DNA from: Deferrisoma camini S3R1
Lineage (GTDB): Bacteria; Desulfobacterota; Deferrisomatia; Deferrisomatales; Deferrisomataceae
Reading direction: 5' to 3'
Length of the DNA: 64,000 nucleotides
Assembly (NCBI RefSeq): GCF_000526155.1
Contig: NZ_JAFN01000001.1
Location: 3,722,264-3,786,263 of the forward strand
Shown here: piece after piece, positions 34,340 to 45,568 of the stretch
How the letters are laid out: each line of letters opens with the position of its first letter
How positions within the stretch are numbered: position 1 is the first letter of the stretch
Program-made: the position numbers and the translations under genes
Notes under the pieces: model-generated
What the model was told of the DNA's origin: nothing
What the model saw: only the letters and a program-made list of their open reading frames with translations
The model's database searches: none

Positions 34340-35185
34340 ATGGCGAGACGGACTCTGGCGGTACTCGTGCTGGCGTTGCTGTGGGCAACCGCCAGCCAGG
34401 CGATCCTGGTGGACCCCTACGACAACATCCTGGCGCCGGACGGCTACTACGGTCTCCTCTATCTCAACTACTACCAGGCGGACGAGTTCACCGGCCCCGA
34501 CGGCGACAAGGCGGCGGACATCGACCTGACCGCCACGGTCGCGGTCGTTCGGCCGTTGGCCTACTTCCACGTGGGGCCGGTACCGGCTGCGTTCCAGGTG
34601 ATCGTGCCGTTCGGGAAGGTGGAGGAGACCGATCTGTTCGACGAGGACTCGTCCGGCCTGGGAGACGTCATCTTCGGCCCGGGGATCTTCCTGTACACCA
34701 ACCAGAACACGAACACCTACGTGTCCTACTGGTTCTACGTGTTCACCCCCACCGGCGAGTGGGACAAGGATCAGACCATCAATCTGGGCCAGAACCACTG
34801 GTATTTCGAGCACCAGCTCGCGTTCAACCAGATCCTCGGCAAGTGGGTGTTCGACATGAACCTGAACTACTACCACCACCTTGAGGAGCCCGACAACGAC
34901 TGGAAGGCCCCCCCGCGGTTCGAGCTGGAGCTGAGCCTGGCGTACCAGGCAACCGACCGGCTGGTCCTCGGGCTCAACGGCGGCGGGTACTGGGACCTGG
35001 ACAACGCGGAGATGGACGGCACCGAGGTGGACGACACCAAGGCGAAGCGGATCCAGTTCGGCCCCACCCTCGGGTACCAGATCACCGACCGGTTCGGGGC
35101 GAACCTGCGTTGGACCCGGGACCTGTCGGCCGCCAACGACGTGAAGGGCGACGACGTGTGGCTGCGGTTCTCCTACGCGTTCTGA
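34340..35185 (+). CDS. Outer-membrane transporter barrel (phenol-pathway MetA type)
   Basis: A 281-residue exported protein: signal peptide RRTLAVLVLALLWATASQA, then amphipathic beta strands ending in an aromatic terminus (WLRFSYAF), as expected of an outer-membrane barrel. The spacing of GLGDVIFGPGIFLYT and HQLAFNQILGKWVFDMNLNY resembles the transporter family associated with meta-cleavage pathways. It is the first gene of the operon, 19 bp before the amine-dehydrogenase alpha subunit, so it probably admits amine substrate into the periplasm. The GGAGGATGACG ribosome site fits. Confidence 0.78.
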   Translation: MARRTLAVLVLALLWATASQAILVDPYDNILAPDGYYGLLYLNYYQADEFTGPDGDKAADIDLTATVAVVRPLAYFHVGPVPAAFQVIVPFGKVEETDLFDEDSSGLGDVIFGPGIFLYTNQNTNTYVSYWFYVFTPTGEWDKDQTINLGQNHWYFEHQLAFNQILGKWVFDMNLNYYHHLEEPDNDWKAPPRFELELSLAYQATDRLVLGLNGGGYWDLDNAEMDGTEVDDTKAKRIQFGPTLGYQITDRFGANLRWTRDLSAANDVKGDDVWLRFSYAF

Positions 35186-35204
35186 AGGAAAGGAGCAGAG
35201 ACCC

Positions 35205-36761
35205 ATGAAGGTTCGAATCCCGATGGTGCTGGCCGTGTCGGTGCTCTGCGCCGGGATCGCAGGGGCCGGTTCGTTTTCCCCGGACTCGCTGGTCTGGAAG
35301 AAGTGCACCGGCTGCCACGAGCCCGTCGGCGGGGTGATCCCCAGGGTGGAGGAGGTGCGCACCACCCCGGAGGAGTGGGCCGTGGTGGTCGAGCGAATGG
35401 CCCGGCTGCACGGCATGTCGCTCTCGGCGGGTGAGATGGAGCAACTGCTCAAGGAGCTGTGCGCCACCCAGATGCTCCGGCCCGACGAGGAGGAAGCGGT
35501 CGCCTACCTGCGGCTGTTCAACAACACCCAGCACCAGGAGGCGCCCCGTGACAAGGACGAGGAGCGGCTGTTCGCCACCTGCGTGCGGTGCCACAGCTTC
35601 GGAAAGATCGCCTCGTACCGCATGACCCCCAAGAACTGGGCGAAGCTGCGGGACTTCCACCTCTACATGGACCCGGCGATCCTGTTCCAGATGCGCGAGA
35701 TGCACTGGATCCAGGAGGCGGACGCCGTGCTGGCCTACCTGGCGAAGCGGTTCCCGTACCAAGAGGCGTGGAAGGCCCCGAAGGCGGACCTGTCCGGCGA
35801 GTGGGTGGTGTTGGGGTACGAGCCCGGCAAGGGCACGTACCGGGGCACGGCCCGATGGAAGGATGCGGGCGGGGGCGAGGCCTCGGTGACCGGCACCCTG
35901 TGGTTTTCCGATGGCACCACCGAGGCGTTTCGGGGCGCGGGCACGGTGTACGGGGGCTACGCCCTGCGCACCCGCACCCGGCACAACGGGTTCGAGACCC
36001 GCGGCGCGTTCACCCTCGACGGGGACGTGATCCGGGGGCAGCACCACTTCCCCGCCCCGGACTTCCGCACCTCGGCGAGCACGTGGTACCGCAACGACGG
36101 CAAGGCCCGGGTGCTGCGGGTCACCCCCGGGTACCTGCTTCCCGGCGAGGAGACCCGGGTGGTGCTGGAGGGGATGAACCTGCCCGAGGTGTCGGCCGAG
36201 GAGGTGTCGTTCGGCGGCTCCGTGGAGGTGCTGGCGGCCCGCAGGCTGGACCCGGGTGTGATCGAGGCGGTCGTGGTGAGCCGTCAGCCGGCCCTGGGCT
36301 CGGCCGAGGTGAGGGTGAAGGGCCTGCCGGCCGGTGAGGTGACCCTGGCGCCCCGGGTGGACTACATCGTGGTCACCCCGGCGGTGGGTCGGGCCCGGCT
36401 GGACGGCGGGGCCTACTACCCCCCCGAAGGGGTCCAGTTCGAGGCCGTGGCCTATTCCAACGGCCGAGACGTGTGGGACGGGGCCGACGACGTGGCCCTG
36501 GGGCCGGTGCCGGCCCGGTTCCGCCTGGAGGAGGAGGTGACCCGGCCCGGCGACGACGACCTGCCCTGGCTGGGCGCCATCGAGCCCGACGGCACCTACA
36601 TTCCGGTGGGCGACTACCGGCCGATCGCGGCCCGGGAGTACTCGGGCGAAGGGTCCGGCTGGGTGAAGGTTGTGGCCGAGTACGATCGGGGCGGTCGCAC
36701 CTACCGGGCAGAGGCCCGCCTGGCGGTCACCGTGCCCGACTACATCCGGAGGATCAAGTGA
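35205..36761 (+). CDS. qhpA: Quinohemoprotein amine dehydrogenase alpha subunit (diheme)
   Basis: A 518-residue periplasmic subunit with a signal peptide (residues 1-21). Two c-type heme sites lie in the N-terminal cytochrome domain: CTGCH (C34/C37/H38) and CVRCH (C126/C129/H130). The rest is beta-rich, with the domains known from QHNDH (for example GEWVVLGYEPGKGTYRGTA and RVTPGYLLPGEETRVVLEG). The subunit passes electrons from the CTQ cofactor of the gamma subunit through its hemes to a periplasmic acceptor. Gene order alpha-D-gamma-beta is the one known from Paracoccus. It overlaps the radical-SAM gene as GTGA. Confidence 0.93.
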   Translation: MKVRIPMVLAVSVLCAGIAGAGSFSPDSLVWKKCTGCHEPVGGVIPRVEEVRTTPEEWAVVVERMARLHGMSLSAGEMEQLLKELCATQMLRPDEEEAVAYLRLFNNTQHQEAPRDKDEERLFATCVRCHSFGKIASYRMTPKNWAKLRDFHLYMDPAILFQMREMHWIQEADAVLAYLAKRFPYQEAWKAPKADLSGEWVVLGYEPGKGTYRGTARWKDAGGGEASVTGTLWFSDGTTEAFRGAGTVYGGYALRTRTRHNGFETRGAFTLDGDVIRGQHHFPAPDFRTSASTWYRNDGKARVLRVTPGYLLPGEETRVVLEGMNLPEVSAEEVSFGGSVEVLAARRLDPGVIEAVVVSRQPALGSAEVRVKGLPAGEVTLAPRVDYIVVTPAVGRARLDGGAYYPPEGVQFEAVAYSNGRDVWDGADDVALGPVPARFRLEEEVTRPGDDDLPWLGAIEPDGTYIPVGDYRPIAAREYSGEGSGWVKVVAEYDRGGRTYRAEARLAVTVPDYIRRIK

Positions 36762-38152
36762 GCGCCACCTACGCCTGGGCGGACCATCGCCTGTTCCGTT
36801 GGGACGGCGAACCCGTGCTCTACGGGGTGGAGGACGTGAGCCTGTTCCACCTGGACCGGGAGGCGGACGAGGTCCTGGCCCGGTGGCGGCCGGCCGAGCC
36901 CCTGGTGCTGGAGCAAACCCCGCCCCAGGACCGCCCGGTGCTGGAAGCGTTTCGCCGGGCCCGGCTCCTGGTGCCGGCCAGGGCCCGGGTTCGGAGCCCC
37001 AGGCCCCGGCCTCCGGCGGCTCCCCCCCTTTCCACCCTGGTGCTGGAGGTGGCCCAGGACTGCAACCTCGCCTGCCGGTACTGCTACGCAGACGGCGGCA
37101 CCTACCACGGCGCCCCCCGGCTCCTCTCGCCTGCCGTGGCCCGGCGGGCCGCCCGGTACCTGGTGGACCGGTCCGGGCCCCACGGGGAGGTGACCCTGGT
37201 CCTGTTCGGTGGGGAGCCCCTCTTGAACCTCCCCGCTGTGCGGGCAGCGGTGGACGAGGCCGAGGCGGCCGCCCGGGCCGCGGGCAAACGGGTCCGGTTC
37301 AGCCTGACCACCAACGGCACCCTGGTCACCGAGGAGGTCTGCGAGTTCCTCCACCGGCACCGGGTGAGCGTGTCCGTGAGCCTGGACGGGCCGCCCGAGG
37401 TCCACGACGCCAACCGCCCCACCCGGGGGGGCTCGGGGTCGTACCGGGCCGCCCGGCAGGGGTTGGCCCTCCTCCTTCGGTCCCCCCAGGCGCCGGTGGC
37501 GGCCCGGGTCACCCTGCCGCCGGCCCAGTGGGACCGCATCCCCGAGGTGTTCGACCACCTGATCGGGCTCGGGGCCCACGAGGTGGGCATCGCGCCCGCA
37601 AGCCCGGTCACCCGGGATCTGCTCCCCACGGCCGAGCAGGAGGAGGCCCTGTTCGCGGGGTTCTCTGGGTTGGCGAGCCGGTTTCTGGCGGCGGCGGGGA
37701 AGGGGGAGGTCCTTCCCTTCTCGAACCTGCTGGACCTCCTGGCCCGGATCCACCTGGGGGCCTCCCGTTCGGCGCCCTGCGGCGCCGGGCTCGGATACCT
37801 GGCCGTGGACACCGAGGGCCGCTTCTTTCTGTGCCATCGGCTGGTCGGAGAGGAGCCGTTCCGGGTGGGGGACCTGGACTCCGGTCCCCGGCCCGGGGCC
37901 ATCCGGGGGTGCTTGGAGGCCTTGGCCGCGCCCCGGGAGGAGCCGTGCTCCCGGTGCTGGGCCCGGGCCCTGTGCCGGGGCGGCTGCCACTACGAGAACC
38001 ATCTGCGGGAAACCGTGCTGGGGTTGCCCTTCGGGGGGACCTGCGGGTTCGTGCGCCGGTGGATCGAGCTGGGCATCCGGGTGTACGCCCGGTTGTGCGC
38101 CTCGGGTCACGAGGATCTGCTCGGCCGGATCGGGGCCCGGGCCCGCTGCTGA
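36758..38152 (+). CDS. qhpD: Radical-SAM/SPASM peptide maturase QhpD
   Basis: A 464-residue cytoplasmic enzyme. The radical-SAM cluster motif is CNLACRYC (C102, C106, C109). A SPASM-type C-terminal region carries many cysteines (APCGAG, FFLCHRL, EPCSRCWARALCRGGCHYEN, GGTCGF) for auxiliary iron-sulfur clusters. QhpD forms the intra-peptide Cys-to-Asp/Glu thioether bonds of the gamma subunit before export. The GTG start overlaps the alpha-subunit stop. The substrate gene follows 55 bp downstream. Confidence 0.93.
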   Translation: MSATYAWADHRLFRWDGEPVLYGVEDVSLFHLDREADEVLARWRPAEPLVLEQTPPQDRPVLEAFRRARLLVPARARVRSPRPRPPAAPPLSTLVLEVAQDCNLACRYCYADGGTYHGAPRLLSPAVARRAARYLVDRSGPHGEVTLVLFGGEPLLNLPAVRAAVDEAEAAARAAGKRVRFSLTTNGTLVTEEVCEFLHRHRVSVSVSLDGPPEVHDANRPTRGGSGSYRAARQGLALLLRSPQAPVAARVTLPPAQWDRIPEVFDHLIGLGAHEVGIAPASPVTRDLLPTAEQEEALFAGFSGLASRFLAAAGKGEVLPFSNLLDLLARIHLGASRSAPCGAGLGYLAVDTEGRFFLCHRLVGEEPFRVGDLDSGPRPGAIRGCLEALAAPREEPCSRCWARALCRGGCHYENHLRETVLGLPFGGTCGFVRRWIELGIRVYARLCASGHEDLLGRIGARARC

Positions 38153-38207
38153 GATTACGCCCACACCGCCCTCCCGGGCGGTCCAGAAAAACCGGAAGGA
38201 GCGAGAG

Positions 38208-38543
38208 ATGAGCGACAAAAAGGCGGTCTTGAAAGCCCTCAACGAGAAGGCCCGGGCCATCGAGACGTTGGCCGAGGGGGAGGAGGAGAGCGCGAGGGCG
38301 CTGCAGGAAGGCCCTCCCGGCATGCCCGCCGGCTGCACCACGGTGTTCGACACCGGATGGGAGACCAACCCCCGGCCCACATACCCCGTGGGCAACTGCC
38401 AGGCCTCGGCCCGGGACTTCCACGGGTGCGCCGGGGACTGCTGGTGGCCGGCCCAGGTGCCGGACGGCCTCACCAACTACCCCGACGTGGACAAGCAGTG
38501 CCCCAACGTGGCCCGGGACTGGCGGAAACTCCAATACGATTGA
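38208..38543 (+). CDS. qhpC: Quinohemoprotein amine dehydrogenase gamma subunit (CTQ-bearing)
   Basis: A 111-residue precursor. All cross-link partners known from the Paracoccus and Pseudomonas enzymes are in register: C43-E52, C64-D70 and C78-D86 for the thioethers, and C74-W80 for the cysteine tryptophylquinone, in the GCAGDCWWPAQVPD segment. About 36 residues precede the expected mature start (around P37) and serve as the leader for QhpD binding and QhpE cleavage. One extra cysteine (C98) has no known partner. No classical signal peptide is present, consistent with export by the dedicated ABC transporter QhpF. Confidence 0.95.
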   Translation: MSDKKAVLKALNEKARAIETLAEGEEESARALQEGPPGMPAGCTTVFDTGWETNPRPTYPVGNCQASARDFHGCAGDCWWPAQVPDGLTNYPDVDKQCPNVARDWRKLQYD

Positions 38544-38604
38544 CCGGAAGCGGCCAGACCATGCCCGGGGTTCTCACCGGTTCGGACTGCGGAAAGGAGC
38601 AGCC

Positions 38605-39615
38605 ATGAGAAGAACTTCCTTGATCGGAGTCGTCACGGCCCTCGCTGTGGGCCTGGTTTCGTTCCAGGCCTCGGCGAAGGATCTCTTCTACTACATCGGC
38701 TACGGGGTGATCCAGGTGATCGACGGCGACACCGACGAGATCGTGGCCGACATCCCGGCCGAGGGGTGGCTGCGGGAGTCCGCGCTGTCGCCGGACAAAC
38801 GCTACCTGTACGTCACCGCCAAACGCCGCCTGATCCACAAGGTGGACCTGAAGGCGAACAAGGTGGTCCAGACCCTCGACATGAGCGGCGGGGGGTGGGA
38901 CCGGTTCATCTACGGGTTCGACGTGGCCCCGGACGGCAAGACCGCCTACGCGTCCATCCGGGCCCGCACGACCGAAGGAGGAGAGGTGGTCGTGAAGCCG
39001 CCCCAGCTCTCCCAACTCGACCTGGCCACGGGCAAGGTGCTGCGGACCCTGGAGCTGCCCTGGGACGCCGCCACCCTGACCACGGTGCGCGACGGCCGCA
39101 TGGTCTACGTGATCGGGAAGGACCTCTACAAGATCGACGTCTCCGGAGATCAGATGCGCCTGGTGGAGACGTACCCCATGTACGAGAAGCAGATGAACTT
39201 CCTGCCCTTCTGGAACTACGCCTGGGAGAACGGTGGGGTGTTCATGGCCAACTACTACACCCCCGAGCTCATGGGGCTCCTGGCGATCGACAAGAAGACC
39301 GGAGAGATCCGGGACACGCCGCTCAACGGCATCCCGGTGTTCGCGTACTCGGTGATCTACTCCCCCGACAAGAAGAAGGCCTACGGCGTCATGGACGAGC
39401 TCAACGTGATCGACCTGGAGACGAAGACCTACGAGTCGATCACGGTGAACCACGAGGGCACCTGCTACGGGGTCAACGTGTCGAGCGACGGCTCCAAAGT
39501 CTACGTGGGCGGCGGCGGATCCACGGTGACGGTGTTCGACGCCCGGACCCTGCGGCCGCTCAAGGTGCTCCAGATGGCCACCGACGGCATGGACATCCGG
39601 CGGGTCACGTTCTGA
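38605..39615 (+). CDS. qhpB: Quinohemoprotein amine dehydrogenase beta subunit
   Basis: A 336-residue periplasmic subunit with a signal peptide (RRTSLIGVVTALAVGLVSFQASA). The mature chain has the repeated blades of a seven-bladed beta-propeller (IQVIDGDTDEIVADI, LSPDKRYLYVTAK, VAPDGKTAYASI, YSPDKKKAYGVMDELNVID, VSSDGSKVYVGGG), as in the known beta subunit, which forms part of the substrate channel and active site with the gamma chain. AAAGGAGCAGCC precedes its ATG. Confidence 0.92.
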   Translation: MRRTSLIGVVTALAVGLVSFQASAKDLFYYIGYGVIQVIDGDTDEIVADIPAEGWLRESALSPDKRYLYVTAKRRLIHKVDLKANKVVQTLDMSGGGWDRFIYGFDVAPDGKTAYASIRARTTEGGEVVVKPPQLSQLDLATGKVLRTLELPWDAATLTTVRDGRMVYVIGKDLYKIDVSGDQMRLVETYPMYEKQMNFLPFWNYAWENGGVFMANYYTPELMGLLAIDKKTGEIRDTPLNGIPVFAYSVIYSPDKKKAYGVMDELNVIDLETKTYESITVNHEGTCYGVNVSSDGSKVYVGGGGSTVTVFDARTLRPLKVLQMATDGMDIRRVTF

Positions 39616-39686
39616 GCCCCTCCCGAGCGCCGGCCCGGGGGGTTCCCGGCCGGCGCGCATCCTCGCTTCGGCGGTGGGGAGGAAGC

Positions 39687-40499
39687 ATGGAGTACGGTTG
39701 GCGGCCCAAGGAGCCCGGCCCGATCCCCGAGGACCCCAGGGACCTGTGCCCGGAGGGGTGGAGGGCGGTCCTGCCGTCGGGAGAGATCACGGCGCTCTGC
39801 TTCGGCTCGGAGTTCTGCCAGGAGGCCCTTCCCACCCCCGAGGGGGCGCAGCGCTGGGTGGGGTGGGCCGGGGATCTGGGGTTGGAGCCGGTGCTCCTCA
39901 CCCCCCCCGTGACCTCCCGGGGCCTGGCCCGGCTGGGGGCGCTCCTGGAGGGGCTCTCCGGTCGTTGCCCCGGTCTCCAGGTGGTTTGCAACGATTGGGG
40001 AACGCTCCGAGCCGTGGGCGAGAGGTTCCCGCGGTTTCGGGTGCGCGCGGGGCGGCTCCTGAACCGGGGGTTACGGGACCCCCGGCCGGGAGCCCAAACC
40101 GGGAGGGAGGCCGGGGACCGGGCCGGGCGCCTGCGCCGGCTGCTCGCCGGCCTGGGGGCCGAGGCCGTGGAGACGGACGTGGACCTGGCCGGTGGATTTC
40201 TGGGCGACGGGTCGGAGGGGCTGGAGCGAACGCTCCATCTCCCCTTCTCGTTCGTCGCCAGCGGCCGCAACTGCCTGGTCCGGTTGGCCGAGGGGGGCGA
40301 GGCCCCGGACGACTGGACCACGGGGCGCCCCTGCACGACCCCCTGCCGCCGGGGGCCGAAGCGGGTCGTGAGGCAGGACACCCCGGTTCCGCTGTGGCGG
40401 GCCGGGAACACCCTGTTCCGTGAGGCCCCCTTGGGGGAGGCGCTTCGCGACCTGGCTCGGGCCGACCGGGTGGTGCTACATGAGGAGCCCCTGCCGTGA
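39687..40499 (+). CDS. Peptidase-U32-family protein, UbiV-like
   Basis: A 270-residue cytoplasmic protein. It resembles the U32-family hydroxylase component UbiV: an early strand TALCFGSEFC (C44, in place of the UbiV cluster cysteine in its GEAVC), then GLEPVLLTPPVTSRGLARL, QVVCNDWGTLRAV, and a late ASGRNC...GRPCTTPC group (C196, C216, C220). This C-x19-C-x3-C set parallels the C-x12-C-x3-C of UbiV that holds a 4Fe-4S cluster. U32 proteins UbiU/UbiV, RlhA and TrhP are O2-independent hydroxylases. The gene is coupled (GTGA) to a second U32 gene and lies inside the QHNDH operon, which lacks flavin hydroxylase QhpG. I infer hydroxylation of the gamma-subunit tryptophan. The family call is by motif, not search. 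Confidence 0.68.
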   Translation: MEYGWRPKEPGPIPEDPRDLCPEGWRAVLPSGEITALCFGSEFCQEALPTPEGAQRWVGWAGDLGLEPVLLTPPVTSRGLARLGALLEGLSGRCPGLQVVCNDWGTLRAVGERFPRFRVRAGRLLNRGLRDPRPGAQTGREAGDRAGRLRRLLAGLGAEAVETDVDLAGGFLGDGSEGLERTLHLPFSFVASGRNCLVRLAEGGEAPDDWTTGRPCTTPCRRGPKRVVRQDTPVPLWRAGNTLFREAPLGEALRDLARADRVVLHEEPLP

Positions 40500-41464
40500 G
40501 CGCGATTCTCGCCCCGGTCCGGCACCCCGAAGAGGTGGCCCCGCTGCGGGGGGCGGGGGCGACGGAGTTCTACTGCGGGCTCACGCCGTGGTTCTGGTCC
40601 CGGGCCGGTGGCGAATGGGTGAACCGACGGAACCCGGAGAGCGCCGGCCTGGAGGACGAGGATGCCCTGCATCGGGTGGTGGAGGAGGCCGGCGGGCTTC
40701 CGGTGTACGTGACCCTCAACGCCCCGTGGTACCCGGGAGACGCGGTCGACGGGCTCGCGGCGTTCGGGGCGTGGCTCCTCCAGGAACAGGGGGTGTCGGG
40801 GCTCATCGTGTCCGACATGGAGCTCCTCCTGGCCCTTGCGGATCTGGGCCTGGCCCATAGGCTCCACCTGTCCAGCGTGGCCGTGTGCACCAACCCGGAG
40901 GCCGTGGGGTTCTTCCGGGACCTGGGGCTCCGGAGGGTCATCCTTCCCCGGCATCTGGCGCTCGACGAGATCGGGGCGGCGCGGGTGCCGGGTGTGGAGC
41001 TCGAGGTCTTCCTTCTGAACGACGGCTGCGTGTTCGAGGAGGGGCTGTGCGCCACGACCCACCGGCTCGGCCCGTTTTGCCTGGGGGACGGCCCCGGGAC
41101 GGAAGGGGTGGGAGCCGAGGCGGTGGACCGGTACGAGTTCTGGAAGTGGACCCGGAACAACTGCGGATGCCGCACGAACCGAGGGATCCCCCTGGGACCC
41201 TGCGGTCTGTGCGCCCTGCCGCGGTTTCTGGGGTGGGGCATCGAGAGCCTGAAGGTGGTGGGCCGGGAGGCGTCGCTGCCCCGGAAGAAGGGCTCGGTCC
41301 GTCTGGCCGCCCGGGGGATGGAGATCGCCCGGTCCGGCGGGGGGCCGGAGGAGATCCGGGAGGCCGTGATCGGGATGCGGGGGGCGGCCGGGCTGTGCGA
41401 GGGGGGGCGCCTGTGTTACTACCCCGAGGTGTGGCGGGGAGAACCCAGGAGGGCGGCGTGTTGA
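40496..41464 (+). CDS. Peptidase-U32-family protein, UbiU-like
   Basis: A 322-residue cytoplasmic protein starting at a GTG that overlaps the previous stop. U32 features: GATEFYCGLTPW near the start, a TIM-like series (LPVYVTLNAPWYP, GLIVSDMELL), and the core VFLLNDGCVFEEGLC, related to the U32 signature (E-V-F-x-H-G-x-L-C). Cysteines C178 and C185 are seven apart, as in the UbiU cluster pair, and C195, C223/C225, C236 and C239 follow. GIESLKVVGREA matches the family's GI-x-S-LKI-x-GR block. It should form a heterodimer with the upstream UbiV-like protein. The inferred role is anaerobic hydroxylation of the QHNDH gamma-subunit tryptophan in place of QhpG. Confidence 0.72.
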   Translation: MSAILAPVRHPEEVAPLRGAGATEFYCGLTPWFWSRAGGEWVNRRNPESAGLEDEDALHRVVEEAGGLPVYVTLNAPWYPGDAVDGLAAFGAWLLQEQGVSGLIVSDMELLLALADLGLAHRLHLSSVAVCTNPEAVGFFRDLGLRRVILPRHLALDEIGAARVPGVELEVFLLNDGCVFEEGLCATTHRLGPFCLGDGPGTEGVGAEAVDRYEFWKWTRNNCGCRTNRGIPLGPCGLCALPRFLGWGIESLKVVGREASLPRKKGSVRLAARGMEIARSGGGPEEIREAVIGMRGAAGLCEGGRLCYYPEVWRGEPRRAAC

Positions 41465-43146
41465 GGGACCTGCGCGAGTTCGCCCGCCACCTGCGGGGCA
41501 AGGGGCCTACGCTCTTCCTGCTCCTGGGCCTGGGGTTTGCCGGGGCCGGGGTGTCGCTCTCGAGCCCCCTTCTGGCGAAGGCCTTCGTGGACGCCGTGGC
41601 GACCCGGGGGGACTACTCCGTGGTGCCGTGGATCGCCGGTGGGCTGGTCGGCGTGGCCCTGCTGGACCTGGGCCTGGGCGTCGTGATCCGGCTGGTGCAT
41701 ACGCGGCTCTCGGCCGCGCTCCTCACGGAACTGCGGCAACGGCTCCTGGAGCACTGCCTGTGCGCCCGGCTGGACGAGCTGGAGGGGTACCGGCACGGGG
41801 ACCTCCTCAGCCGGTTCGGCACGGATATCCCCCAGGTCCAAGGGCTCCTGGTGGACGGCGTGCTGGGGGGGCTGCGCAATCTCCTGACGCTCGGGGTGGC
41901 GGCGGTGATCCTGGTCCGGATGCACCCGGGCCTTGCCGCGTGGAGTTTCCTGGGGGTGGCCGCGGCGTTGACCGCCGCCGTCTGGTTCCGCAGACCGGTG
42001 GAGGCCCACGCCCGGCGAACCCGTCTCGCCATGGTGGATCTCTCCCATTTCCTGGCGGAACGCCTGGCCGCGCTCCGGCCGATTCGGATCCACGGGGCCG
42101 TCGGGGAGGAGCTGGGGCGGTTCCTCGGGGTGCAGCGGACCCTGGTTCGGCGGGTGGTGGCCTTTCAGGGGGTGGACGCCGCGGCCGGAGGGGTTCCCGG
42201 GCTTCTCCTGACGTGCAGCCTGGCGTGGATCTACTGGATGGGCGGAGGGCTCCTGGAGTCCGGGAGCCTGACCCTGGGCACGTTCGTGGCGTTCGTTCTG
42301 TACCAGGGACGCCTGTTCGGGCCGGCCCAGGGCCTGCTGGGACTGGTCCGAGGGCTCCAGGAGGCAAAGGTGAGCGTTTCGAGGGTTGCGGAGCTGCTCC
42401 GGCTGGCCCGGGAGCCCACGGCGCCTCCGACGCGCCGGCCCGAACCGGAGAGGCTCGTGCGCTTATCGCGCGTCTCGTTCTCCTACCCGGGAAGAGAGCG
42501 GCTCCTCGAGGGGGTCGATCTCGACCTGGGGCCCGGCGAACGGGTGGTACTGATCGGGGCGTCGGGCGCCGGGAAGTCGACCCTGGTGCAGCTCCTCTTC
42601 GGGCTTCGGTCTCCCGGGGTGGGCACCGTGCGCCTCGGGGGGGGGGATCCCAGGGCCATGCCCCCGCCCGAGCTGCGCCGGTGGATCGGGTACGCCGGCG
42701 CCGAGCCGTTTCTCCTCCACGCAACGGTGGAGGAGAACCTCTGCTACGCCCGGCCCGACGCCACGGAGGCCGAGATGCTGGAGGCGGCCCGGATCGCCTG
42801 CGCGCACGGCTTCATCCTTTCGCTTCCCCAGGGCTACCGGACCGTGGTCGGGGGGCGCGGGCTGACCCTGTCGGACGGCCAGCGCCAGCGCCTGGGGTTG
42901 GCCCGCCTCGTTCTCCAGGCGCCCCGGGTGTTCGTCCTGGACGAGGCCCTGAGCGGGCTCGATCCGGAAACCGAGCGGCGGGTGTGGGAAAACCTCACGG
43001 GGGCCTTCCCCGACCGGTCGTTCCTGGTGATCACCCACCGGCCGGAGCGGCTTTCCGGTGTGGGGAGAGTCCTTCGGCTGGAGCACGCACGCCTTGTCCC
43101 GGCATCCATCCCGGACGAACCGAACCTGCGTACCCACTCCCCTTGA
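41458..43146 (+). CDS. qhpF: ABC exporter for the gamma subunit, QhpF-like
   Basis: A 562-residue half-transporter with six membrane helices (residues about 15-300) followed by an ATPase: Walker A IGASGAGKST, LSDGQRQRLGLARLV signature, Walker B RVFVLDEALSGLD and an ITHRPERL H-loop. This fusion is the QhpF layout. It moves the cross-linked gamma peptide to the periplasm. The GTG at 41458 overlaps the U32 stop and follows AGGAGGG; a TTG three bases later is an alternative start. Position between the maturation enzymes and the protease supports the role. Confidence 0.85.
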   Translation: MLRDLREFARHLRGKGPTLFLLLGLGFAGAGVSLSSPLLAKAFVDAVATRGDYSVVPWIAGGLVGVALLDLGLGVVIRLVHTRLSAALLTELRQRLLEHCLCARLDELEGYRHGDLLSRFGTDIPQVQGLLVDGVLGGLRNLLTLGVAAVILVRMHPGLAAWSFLGVAAALTAAVWFRRPVEAHARRTRLAMVDLSHFLAERLAALRPIRIHGAVGEELGRFLGVQRTLVRRVVAFQGVDAAAGGVPGLLLTCSLAWIYWMGGGLLESGSLTLGTFVAFVLYQGRLFGPAQGLLGLVRGLQEAKVSVSRVAELLRLAREPTAPPTRRPEPERLVRLSRVSFSYPGRERLLEGVDLDLGPGERVVLIGASGAGKSTLVQLLFGLRSPGVGTVRLGGGDPRAMPPPELRRWIGYAGAEPFLLHATVEENLCYARPDATEAEMLEAARIACAHGFILSLPQGYRTVVGGRGLTLSDGQRQRLGLARLVLQAPRVFVLDEALSGLDPETERRVWENLTGAFPDRSFLVITHRPERLSGVGRVLRLEHARLVPASIPDEPNLRTHSP

Positions 43147-43163
43147 GACACGGAGGAAGCCCC

Positions 43164-44873
43164 ATGTCGCGGATTCTTCGCATCGACCTTTCCCAGAAGC
43201 GGTTTTCGTTTGAGGACCTGCCCGATGCCTGGCAGGGGCTGGGGGGGCGCGGGCTCACCTCGGCCGTGGTGGCGGAGGAGGTGCCGCCCGACGCCGATCC
43301 CCTGGGGCCCGAGAACCGGCTGGTGCTGGCGCCGGGCCTGCTGGCCGGGACGGCGGCGCCCAACAACGGGCGCCTGTCGGTGGGGGCCAAGAGCCCGCTC
43401 ACCGGAACCATCAAGGAGTCCAACGCCGGCGGGTCGTTCGCCCAGAAGCTCGCCCGTCTCGGCGTGGCCGCGGTTGTGCTCGAGGGGAGCGCCCCGGACC
43501 CGGTGACGGTGACGATCCGGGCCGCGGGGGTGGAGCTCGAGCCCGCCGGCGATCTGTGGGGGAAGGGCGCGTACGAAGCTGCCGACGCGCTGGGCGCCCG
43601 CTGCCCGGGCTGCGGCATCGCCCTGGTGGGGCCTGCCGGGGAGAGGGGGTGCAAGGCGGCGGCGGTATGCGTGACCACGCCCGACGGGTTCCTGCGCACG
43701 GCCGCCCGGGGCGGGTTGGGGGCGGTCATGGGCTCCAAGGGGGTCAAGGCCGTGGTGGTGGACGACGCGGGCGGGCCGGGCGCCTCGGTGGCCGATCCGG
43801 ACCGGTTCCGGGCGGCCGCAAAGACCCTGTCGGAGGGCATCGCGGCCCACCCCCTCGTGGGCGGGTTCCAGGCCCTGGGCACCTCGATGCTGGTGGGGCT
43901 GATCAACGAGCTGGGGGGGCTGCCCACCCGCAACTACTCGGCGGGCCGGTTCGAGGGCGCCCCCCGGATCGCCGGGGAGGCCTTGGCCGAGATCATGGCG
44001 GCCCGGCCCAACGCGAGCTCCCGGCACCGGTGCATGGCCGGGTGCCTGATCCACTGCTCCCAGGTGTACACGGCCGAGGGCGGCGAGGTGATCACCTCGG
44101 GGTTCGAGTACGAGACCCTTGGGATGGTGGGGAGCAACTGCGCCATCGACGACCCGGACGCCATCGCCCGGATCGACCGGCTGTGCGACGCCCTGGGGCT
44201 CGACACCATGGAGGTCGGGGCCGCGGCCGCGGTGGCCATGGAGGCTGGCGCCCTTCCCTGGGGGGACGGGGCGGCCCTGTTGGAGGCCCTCGCCTCGGTG
44301 CCCACCGGCGGAAGGCTGGGGCTCCTGCTCGCCGACGGCTCCGTGGCCACGGGCCGGGAGCTCGGCGTGGCCCGGGTGCCCGCGGTCAAGGGCCAGGCCA
44401 TGGCCGCCTACGACCCCCGGTGTCTCAAGGGAACCGGTGTGACCTACGCCACGAGCCCCATGGGAGCGGACCACACCGCGGGCAACGTGCTGCCGAGCCC
44501 GGCCAACCCAGACTACGACCCGGCCAAGCCGGAGGGGCAGTACCAGGTCTCCGAGTTCGTGCAGTGCTACTTCGCGGCCGTGGACACCCTGGGCCTGTGC
44601 CTGTTCGCCTCGCTCCCCGTGGTGGAGAGCGAGGAGCTCCAGGCCGCCCTGGCCGAGGCCGTGGCCGCCAAGCTGGGCCACGAGATCCCCGGTGGCTCCC
44701 TGATCGGGCTCGGCCGGCGGGTGTGCCTGACCGAGAAGGGGTTCAACCGGCGAGCCGGGTTCGGGCCGAGGCACGACCGGCTGCCCGGCTTCTTCGCCCG
44801 GGAGCCGCTGCCGCCCCACGGCCACGTGTGGGACGTGCCGGACGCGGACCTGGACCGGGTGTTTGCGGAGTGA
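43164..44873 (+). CDS. Aldehyde:ferredoxin oxidoreductase-family tungsto/molybdoenzyme
   Basis: A 569-residue enzyme. The N terminus ILRIDLSQKRF leads into the family's GGRGLTSAVVAEEV and GRLSVGAKSPLTGTIKESNAGG region that binds the pterin cofactor. The 4Fe-4S ligands are in RCMAGCLIHC (C-x3-C-x3-C) with a later C in TLGLCLFASLP. It has ESN-like and YET (FEYETLGMVGSNC) motifs expected of the family. It oxidises aldehydes to acids with ferredoxin as acceptor in the cytoplasm. In this operon it would take up the aldehyde made by periplasmic amine oxidation. GGAGGA precedes the ATG. Confidence 0.88.
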   Translation: MSRILRIDLSQKRFSFEDLPDAWQGLGGRGLTSAVVAEEVPPDADPLGPENRLVLAPGLLAGTAAPNNGRLSVGAKSPLTGTIKESNAGGSFAQKLARLGVAAVVLEGSAPDPVTVTIRAAGVELEPAGDLWGKGAYEAADALGARCPGCGIALVGPAGERGCKAAAVCVTTPDGFLRTAARGGLGAVMGSKGVKAVVVDDAGGPGASVADPDRFRAAAKTLSEGIAAHPLVGGFQALGTSMLVGLINELGGLPTRNYSAGRFEGAPRIAGEALAEIMAARPNASSRHRCMAGCLIHCSQVYTAEGGEVITSGFEYETLGMVGSNCAIDDPDAIARIDRLCDALGLDTMEVGAAAAVAMEAGALPWGDGAALLEALASVPTGGRLGLLLADGSVATGRELGVARVPAVKGQAMAAYDPRCLKGTGVTYATSPMGADHTAGNVLPSPANPDYDPAKPEGQYQVSEFVQCYFAAVDTLGLCLFASLPVVESEELQAALAEAVAAKLGHEIPGGSLIGLGRRVCLTEKGFNRRAGFGPRHDRLPGFFAREPLPPHGHVWDVPDADLDRVFAE

Positions 44874-45568
44874 GCCCGGCGGTGCCGGTTCGGCTGCGGG
44901 TGGGGGTGGTGGACACCGGCGTGAACCCCTGGCACTCCCACGTGCGGGGGGCCGTGGCCGGGTGCCGGGTGTTCCTGGACCCGCGGGGACGGATCCGGGA
45001 GGACGGGGAGTTCTTCGACCCGGTGGGCCACGGCACCGCGGTGGCCGGCGTGCTGCGCCAGGAGCTCCCCGGGGCCGAGATCTACGCCGTGCGCGTGTTC
45101 GGGGCCGGGCTCACCACCTACCCCTCCCTGGTGGCCCGGGGGATGCTCCGGGCGGCGGCCGAGGGCTGCGCGGTGATCAACCTGAGCCTGGCCGTGCCCC
45201 CGGGCCCTGGGTCCGCCCTGATCGCGGAGGCGTGCGGCCTGGTGCGCCGGGCCGGATGCCGGGTGGTGGCCGCGGGGGACGCCGGCGGTCGGGTCGTTCT
45301 GCCCGCCGCCCTGCCCGGGGTGCTGGGGGTGGTGGCGGACGATGCGCTGGCCGACGGCGAGGTGGGGGTTGGGGGCGGGCCCTACCCGTTTCGGGCCCCC
45401 GGCCGGCCCCGGGACCTGGCCGGGCTCCCCCGGGGGGCCAACCTGCTGGGGGGATCGTTCGCCTGCGCCCGGGTCGCGGCCCGGGCGGCCCGGGACCCGG
45501 CATGGGCCGAAAAGGCCCTTGACCGGACCGGCCGATCTGAGTATAAAGACCGCCTCACGGGCGATTAG
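44870..45568 (+). CDS. qhpE: Subtilisin-like maturation protease QhpE
   Basis: A 232-residue serine protease. The S8 catalytic triad is visible: D in VGVVDTGVNPWH, H in GHGTAVAGVL and S in GGSFACARVA. It is short for a subtilase and has no signal peptide, as for QhpE, which removes the gamma leader in the cytoplasm after cross-linking. The GTG overlaps the previous stop. The last three codons lie inside the tRNA-Val gene and its stop TAG is tRNA positions 8-10, so the gene and tRNA share ten bases. Confidence 0.86.
   Translation: MSPAVPVRLRVGVVDTGVNPWHSHVRGAVAGCRVFLDPRGRIREDGEFFDPVGHGTAVAGVLRQELPGAEIYAVRVFGAGLTTYPSLVARGMLRAAAEGCAVINLSLAVPPGPGSALIAEACGLVRRAGCRVVAAGDAGGRVVLPAALPGVLGVVADDALADGEVGVGGGPYPFRAPGRPRDLAGLPRGANLLGGSFACARVAARAARDPAWAEKALDRTGRSEYKDRLTGD

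Follow-up and report, generated by a model that had tools for sequence, protein, structure and literature searches.

The DNA analysed here, referred to as the window, is a 64,000-nucleotide stretch of the Deferrisoma camini S3R1 genome (4.24 Mb, single contig). Its plus strand carries a quinohemoprotein amine dehydrogenase (QHNDH) operon at 34340-45568 (34.3-45.6 kb), in which the genes are arranged in the order qhpA-D-C-B-U32A-U32B-qhpF-AOR-qhpE (Table 1). Genes for the alpha, gamma, radical-SAM, beta, exporter and protease proteins all lie together, which meets the criterion for a QHNDH operon; QhpB, QhpD and QhpE are the best matches of their own models, yet remain under the equivalog cut-offs. 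The closest named relatives of the operon are Deferrisomatales, and the position of the outer-membrane-like gene 5' of qhpA is kept in close relatives.

Table 1. Genes of the QHNDH operon, in window coordinates
Feature	Position	Strand	Basis
Outer-membrane-like protein (Phenol_MetA_deg), first gene of the run	34340..35185	+	PF13557, 136 bits
QhpA, alpha subunit, heme-binding domain	35205..36761	+	TIGR03908, 299 bits, above cut-off
QhpD, radical-SAM thioether-forming maturase	36758..38152	+	TIGR03906 top match, 316 bits, cut-off 453
QhpC, gamma subunit precursor	38208..38543	+	NF037958, 122 bits, above cut-off; alignments
QhpB, beta-propeller subunit	38605..39615	+	TIGR03907 top match, 128 bits, under cut-off
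U32A, UbiV-like partner, TIM barrel	39687..40499	+	AF2 model, 5D88 match, cysteine conservation, weak UbiV profile match
U32B, UbiU-like partner	40496..41464	+	PF01136, UbiU profile, conservation, AF2 pLDDT 85
QhpF, ABC exporter	41461..43146	+	PF00005 and PF00664; conserved position
Aldehyde:ferredoxin oxidoreductase (AOR)	43164..44873	+	PF01314, PF02730
QhpE, subtilisin-like leader protease	44870..45568	+	NF049966 top match, 121 bits, cut-off 165

The two U32 genes encode proteins of 270 (U32A) and 322 (U32B) residues and overlap, the GTG start of U32B sharing the letters GTGA with the TGA stop of U32A; the exporter gene, which starts with TTG at 41461, overlaps in turn with the U32B stop. 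No qhpG is found in the operon or in the host genome. The first-pass annotation, made from sequence alone, had placed two coupled genes between the structural genes and the exporter, among homologues of QhpA, QhpD, QhpC, QhpB, QhpF and QhpE and without qhpG. Both claims held, with the reservation about cut-offs given above.

The AOR gene, whose start was set at MSRILRID, sits between qhpF and qhpE, where the loci of Leisingera, Paracoccus and Cupriavidus have an aldehyde dehydrogenase; its protein likely oxidises the aldehyde product. Desulfobacterales-type loci encode a multiheme cytochrome resembling NapC/NrfH 3' of qhpB (L056:8287-8841, L018:7822-8418, L020:3001-3840), which could conceivably be the electron acceptor for QHNDH.

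Alignments assign to the QhpC of the window the thioether pairs C43/E52, C64/D70 and C78/D86 and the CTQ pair C74/W80. The thioether residues are conserved in QhpC from operons carrying the U32 pair (U32-type), as are the CTQ tryptophan (60/60) and the CTQ cysteine (59/60). Retention of Trp80 and Cys74 implies that the hydroxylation step is still required. A divergent QhpC at L019:5707-6021 keeps the tryptophan and has a threonine in place of the CTQ cysteine, so that its cofactor may differ. An extra C-terminal cysteine is present in 55 of 60 U32-type sequences versus 2 of 20 QhpG-type sequences.

Fold and conserved residues of U32A and U32B

U32B belongs to the U32 family by both sequence and fold. 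It passes PF01136 with 83.6 bits against a gathering score of 22.4, the match spanning residues 94-191 only. The best NCBIfam model is that of UbiU (NF047963), which scores 54.1 bits without meeting its equivalog cut-off of 440, and which is matched by all 50 U32B members; the family aligns with the UbiU profile over ~280 columns at 99.9% probability. Against the TrhP model, U32B reaches 43 bits (cut-off 534). The top Foldseek match of its AlphaFold model is the U32 structure 5D88.

Across the 50 U32B proteins there is no variation at E170, C178, C185, C195, C236 or C239 and almost none at C301 and C307, which leaves more invariant cysteines than a single cluster needs. The [4Fe-4S] ligands are C169, C176, C193 and C232 in UbiU and C39, C180, C193 and C197 in UbiV (PMC6747719). 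C178 and C185 of U32B align with C169 and C176 of UbiU; C195 and C236 are candidates for the counterparts of C193 and C232, but the spacing differs. Glu 170, Cys 178 and Cys 185 also show the same spacing (E-X7-C-X6-C) as the essential E162, C170 and C177 of TrhP (PMC6599085).

Structure and pattern, together with a distant profile match, mark U32A as a U32-fold protein; family models do not. No Pfam match is obtained for the window protein or any of the 55 members, the gathering score of PF01136 not being reached, and no informative NCBIfam model matches, with the UbiV model unmatched in all 55; U32A is therefore placed in U32 by fold and distant profile only. The AF2 model is confident (pLDDT 89.6, pTM 0.90) and its top PDB match, by both Foldseek and VIA-align, is the U32 domain 5D88 (MK0906). 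The VIA-align superposition (Z 13.7, rmsd 3.5, 193 residues) has just a modest margin over other TIM barrels, the next of which score Z 12.0.

Profile comparison of U32A with UbiV gives a weak local match (hhalign P 4e-4) in which C44 aligns with the UbiV cluster ligand C39. All 55 U32A proteins have C44, C196 and C216, and nearly all have C220, a C44-Xn-C196-X19-C216-X3-C220 arrangement that resembles the CXnCX12CX3C of UbiV except for the middle spacing. On the strength of the local match and the cysteine pattern, kinship with UbiV is likely but not proven. Searching PDB sequences with either the U32A or the U32B profile returned no useful relative.

These results bear on several earlier claims. 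The residues listed in the first-pass annotation (C44, C196, C216 and C220 of U32A, C178 and C185 of U32B, W80 of QhpC) are right, though its account of the U32B cysteines was incomplete, as C195, C236, C239, C301 and C307 were missing. That both proteins are U32-like held, for U32B by sequence and fold and for U32A by fold; the proposed PF01136 check is passed by U32B alone, U32A having no match to Pfam or to the UbiV model.

The U32 pair and QhpG are mutually exclusive in operons

When 84,980 species genomes were scanned with a QhpC alignment, 80 loci came up, listed in order of similarity to the QhpC of the window; with loci from the phylum and from plasmids added and duplicates removed, 88 non-redundant qhpC loci were obtained. 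The survey is thus similarity-ranked, and it includes many metagenome bins. U32A is present in 60 loci and QhpG in 20, whereas both are present in none within the stretch seen; the remaining eight are truncated or unresolved. Co-occurrence in one operon, which would have spoken against the original claim, was therefore found in 0/80 typed loci. Fisher's exact test gives p 1e-13, but this is no true probability because related loci were counted as independent.

The pair recurs in ~60 operons of at least six phyla (Thermodesulfobacteriota, Pseudomonadota, Bacillota, Nitrospinota, Acidobacteriota and Poribacteria, assigned partly from record titles), and its recurrence next to qhp genes is far beyond chance. 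U32B follows U32A wherever the contig permits, save in L056, where a transposase lies 3' of U32A. A U32A-only operon type was considered and rejected: apart from L056, four of the loci in question stop at the edge of a contig (L035, L040, L063, L065) and one reaches a scaffold gap (L057), so that no genuine single-gene type is shown.

Several of the loci of neither type are also limited by the sequence available. L028 and L066 end at contig edges, the contig of L101 starts inside qhpD and leaves the upstream side unseen, L092 is a short contig, and L055 has a gap in qhpB. L060 and L062 are satellite structural sets with the pair elsewhere in their genome, and L093, like L092, comes from Bryobacterales with additional qhp operons. 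Divergent Bryobacterales qhp operons (L167:12860-13735 and L171), one of them beside a weak QhpG-like protein of ~120 bits, are possibly a further variant. A UbiU-like match in L094 (Leisingera sp. ANG1) was rejected as a qhp pair, as it belongs to a ubiT-ubiU-ubiV set (L094:235-2664) upstream of a QhpG-type operon.

QhpG was also searched for across whole genomes, with positive controls recovered at 485-566 bits. The best matches to the QhpG profile in the host genome score no more than 64 bits, so a qhpG elsewhere in that genome, another outcome that would have counted against the claim, was not found; the two top matches look from their sequence like geranylgeranyl-reductase-type flavoproteins and not QhpG. 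Whole-genome searches for 43 other loci, of which 39 are U32-type, found no QhpG either, with only the 40 best first-look candidates scored in most genomes. The exception is G443, a Terriglobia bin (Acidobacteriota) with both in one genome, where a contig carries U32A-U32B-QhpB (84.6-87.6 kb) and a complete QhpG-type operon (95-107 kb). Drawing 385 genomes independently from the class to which L087, an alphaproteobacterium, belongs added six new QhpC genomes; QhpG is present in 4/4 fully visible operons, two contigs being cut short, and U32A in 0/6.

Mapped onto a QhpD tree, the two labels (U32 and QhpG) require two changes, each imposed by branches with good support, compared with a mean of 18 after shuffling. 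The systems have therefore been swapped at least twice, whichever way round. A Rhodospirillales-like U32 group adjoins the proteobacterial QhpG group, and in it the pair lies 3' of qhpE, not 3' of qhpB. Relative to paralogues, qhp-linked U32A proteins form one clade (support 98/95) and so do the U32B proteins (99/95), so that they make up a subfamily of their own and do not stem from UbiU-UbiV taken up time and again. In the G077/G451 bin (L018, L020, L121), qhpD, U32A, U32B, qhpF and qhpE form one cluster, with two qhpA-C-B sets that lack maturation genes elsewhere. This separation from the structural sets ties the pair to maturation and suggests that maturation proceeds in trans.

A proposed O2-independent tryptophan hydroxylase

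We propose that U32A and U32B are an O2-independent iron-sulfur peptidyl-tryptophan hydroxylase that takes the place of QhpG in CTQ formation, a reading we regard as likely (probability ~0.8). The replacement itself is shown by genomics without biochemistry, and the operon place, fold, conserved cysteines, QhpG exclusivity, dedicated clades and retained CTQ residues are likewise shown. The heterodimer, the clusters, catalysis, the substrate, dihydroxylation and the oxygen source are inferred by analogy with UbiU-UbiV. The first-pass annotation had already claimed that the pair hydroxylates the CTQ tryptophan without O2; all three of its refutation checks came out in favour of this, and the chemistry is still inference. 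Its 'anaerobic route' is better called O2-independent, given that Bacillus, Brevibacillus and Aneurinibacillus have the pair as well. The Bacillota carrying the pair include species generally regarded as aerobic.

In the proposed sequence of events, QhpD would act first, in the cytoplasm, introducing three Cys-Asp/Glu thioethers into QhpC. U32A and U32B, as a UbiU-UbiV-like heterodimer with probably one [4Fe-4S] cluster per subunit, would next hydroxylate the W80 indole of the crosslinked QhpC at C6 and C7 without O2. The oxygen donor may be prephenate, as in other U32 oxidases; the host genome encodes two chorismate mutase domains, which makes a supply of prephenate likely. After removal of the leader by QhpE and export of the gamma subunit by QhpF, formation of the Cys74-Trp80 bond and the final oxidation to CTQ would come last, probably with the alpha-subunit hemes.

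The step assigned to the pair corresponds to that of QhpG, which dihydroxylates the CTQ tryptophan with FAD and O2 after QhpD has formed the thioethers (PMC7876137). The two systems share operon context, proposed substrate and product step, but they are unrelated proteins that rely on flavin and O2 in one case and on a predicted iron-sulfur centre in the other. The O2-independent ubiquinone hydroxylase UbiU-UbiV (PMC6747719) is another parallel, since it too consists of adjacent UbiU-like and UbiV-like genes with similar cysteine patterns and stands in for O2-dependent flavin hydroxylases. There are differences: the qhp pair is a separate clade, U32A is missed by the UbiV model, U32B has extra cysteines, and the substrate of UbiU-UbiV is a prenylated phenol whereas that proposed here is a peptide. 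No partner like UbiT (SCP2) was found among the ten operon proteins scanned. In anaerobic ubiquinone synthesis the hydroxyl comes from prephenate, while the role of the cluster is unknown (review, PMC11574389). TrhP and RlhA are also prephenate-dependent proteins with a U32 domain, and the E-X7-C-X6-C spacing likens U32B to them, but they are single proteins acting on RNA (PMC6599085). LodB/GoxB and MauG resemble the proposed enzyme in oxidising a protein tryptophan to a quinone cofactor, but are flavin or di-heme enzymes that act on pre-hydroxylated tryptophan (PMC7876137).

Other roles for the pair can be envisaged. It might supply electrons or iron-sulfur chemistry to QhpD, or make the Cys74-Trp80 bond, with the tryptophan hydroxylated otherwise or by itself. 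The iron-sulfur-type cysteines and the grouping with qhpD, qhpF and qhpE in G077/G451 would fit such a helper, but we consider it unlikely, as QhpD works without the pair in QhpG-type operons, the pair occurs exactly where QhpG is missing, and the characterised U32 iron-sulfur proteins are hydroxylases (PMC11574389). It is similarly improbable that the pair performs only one hydroxylation, the other being spontaneous or due to another protein. The first hydroxyl of MADH and LodA/GoxA is indeed thought to arise separately from the maturase, but QhpG adds both oxygens (PMC7876137), and no second candidate recurs in U32-type operons, although the gene table covered known qhp families only.

Two further alternatives are less probable still. 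The pair could make some cofactor other than CTQ for U32-type QHNDH, as the threonine in the L019 QhpC and the extra C-terminal cysteine of most U32-type sequences might suggest; against this stands the near-complete retention of Cys74 and Trp80. The pair could instead act as a peptidase and trim QhpC or some other product of the operon, since U32 bears a peptidase-family name and U32B matches PF01136. However, U32-type loci also have the leader protease QhpE, the conserved features are the E/C/C residues and cysteine clusters common to UbiU and TrhP, and exclusivity with QhpG would be left unexplained.

U32 oxidases are known to act on RNA bases and on precursors of ubiquinone (PMC11574389). 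If the hydroxylase reading is correct, they would gain a new class of substrate, a protein side chain, and with it their first known protein target. It would also be explained how a tryptophylquinone enzyme with a known biogenesis that depends on O2 can be made in obligate anaerobes such as Geobacter and Desulfobacterales. In the open PMC literature searched (preprints excluded), no paper linking U32 proteins to QHNDH was found. Oxygen insertion by U32 proteins is itself still open, as direct evidence of catalysis is reported to be lacking and the substrates of UbiU-UbiV are hydrophobic. There is in vitro work on QhpC, QhpD and QhpG, and QhpC would therefore offer a soluble, defined peptide substrate for probing this chemistry.

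Paralogous U32 proteins outside QHNDH operons

Applied to 395 genomes of the phylum, the U32A profile matched 39, compared with eight that have QhpC. The additional matches are paralogues, either pairs near lipB-lipA or ubiX-like genes or single proteins beside moeA- or mobB-like genes. Paralogous pairs without QHNDH lie at L139:9744-11568, at L137:9565-11504 and in L144, beside lipB-lipA-like genes or near a ubiX-like gene, and most genomes of the family that holds them have two U32A copies. They share the two-gene arrangement and the cysteines of the qhp pair, but fall outside its clade. Their different neighbours imply that the family is not confined to tryptophan. On a bolder reading, which we favour by a narrow margin, an iron-sulfur U32 heterodimer would dihydroxylate a protein tryptophan without O2 and would belong to a wider, uncharacterised U32A-U32B family with other targets, near lipoate, molybdopterin and ubiX-like genes.

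The host genome has a U32A-like paralogue next to a moeA-like gene (C1:1824846-1825553, L136:8837-9724), and a second genome from the order has one next to a mobB-like gene (L143:9801-10487), so a molybdopterin link is possible. The host genome also encodes a lone U32B-like protein (L002:1186-2169), which adjoins a tetrapyrrole-methylase-like gene (L002:387-1157).
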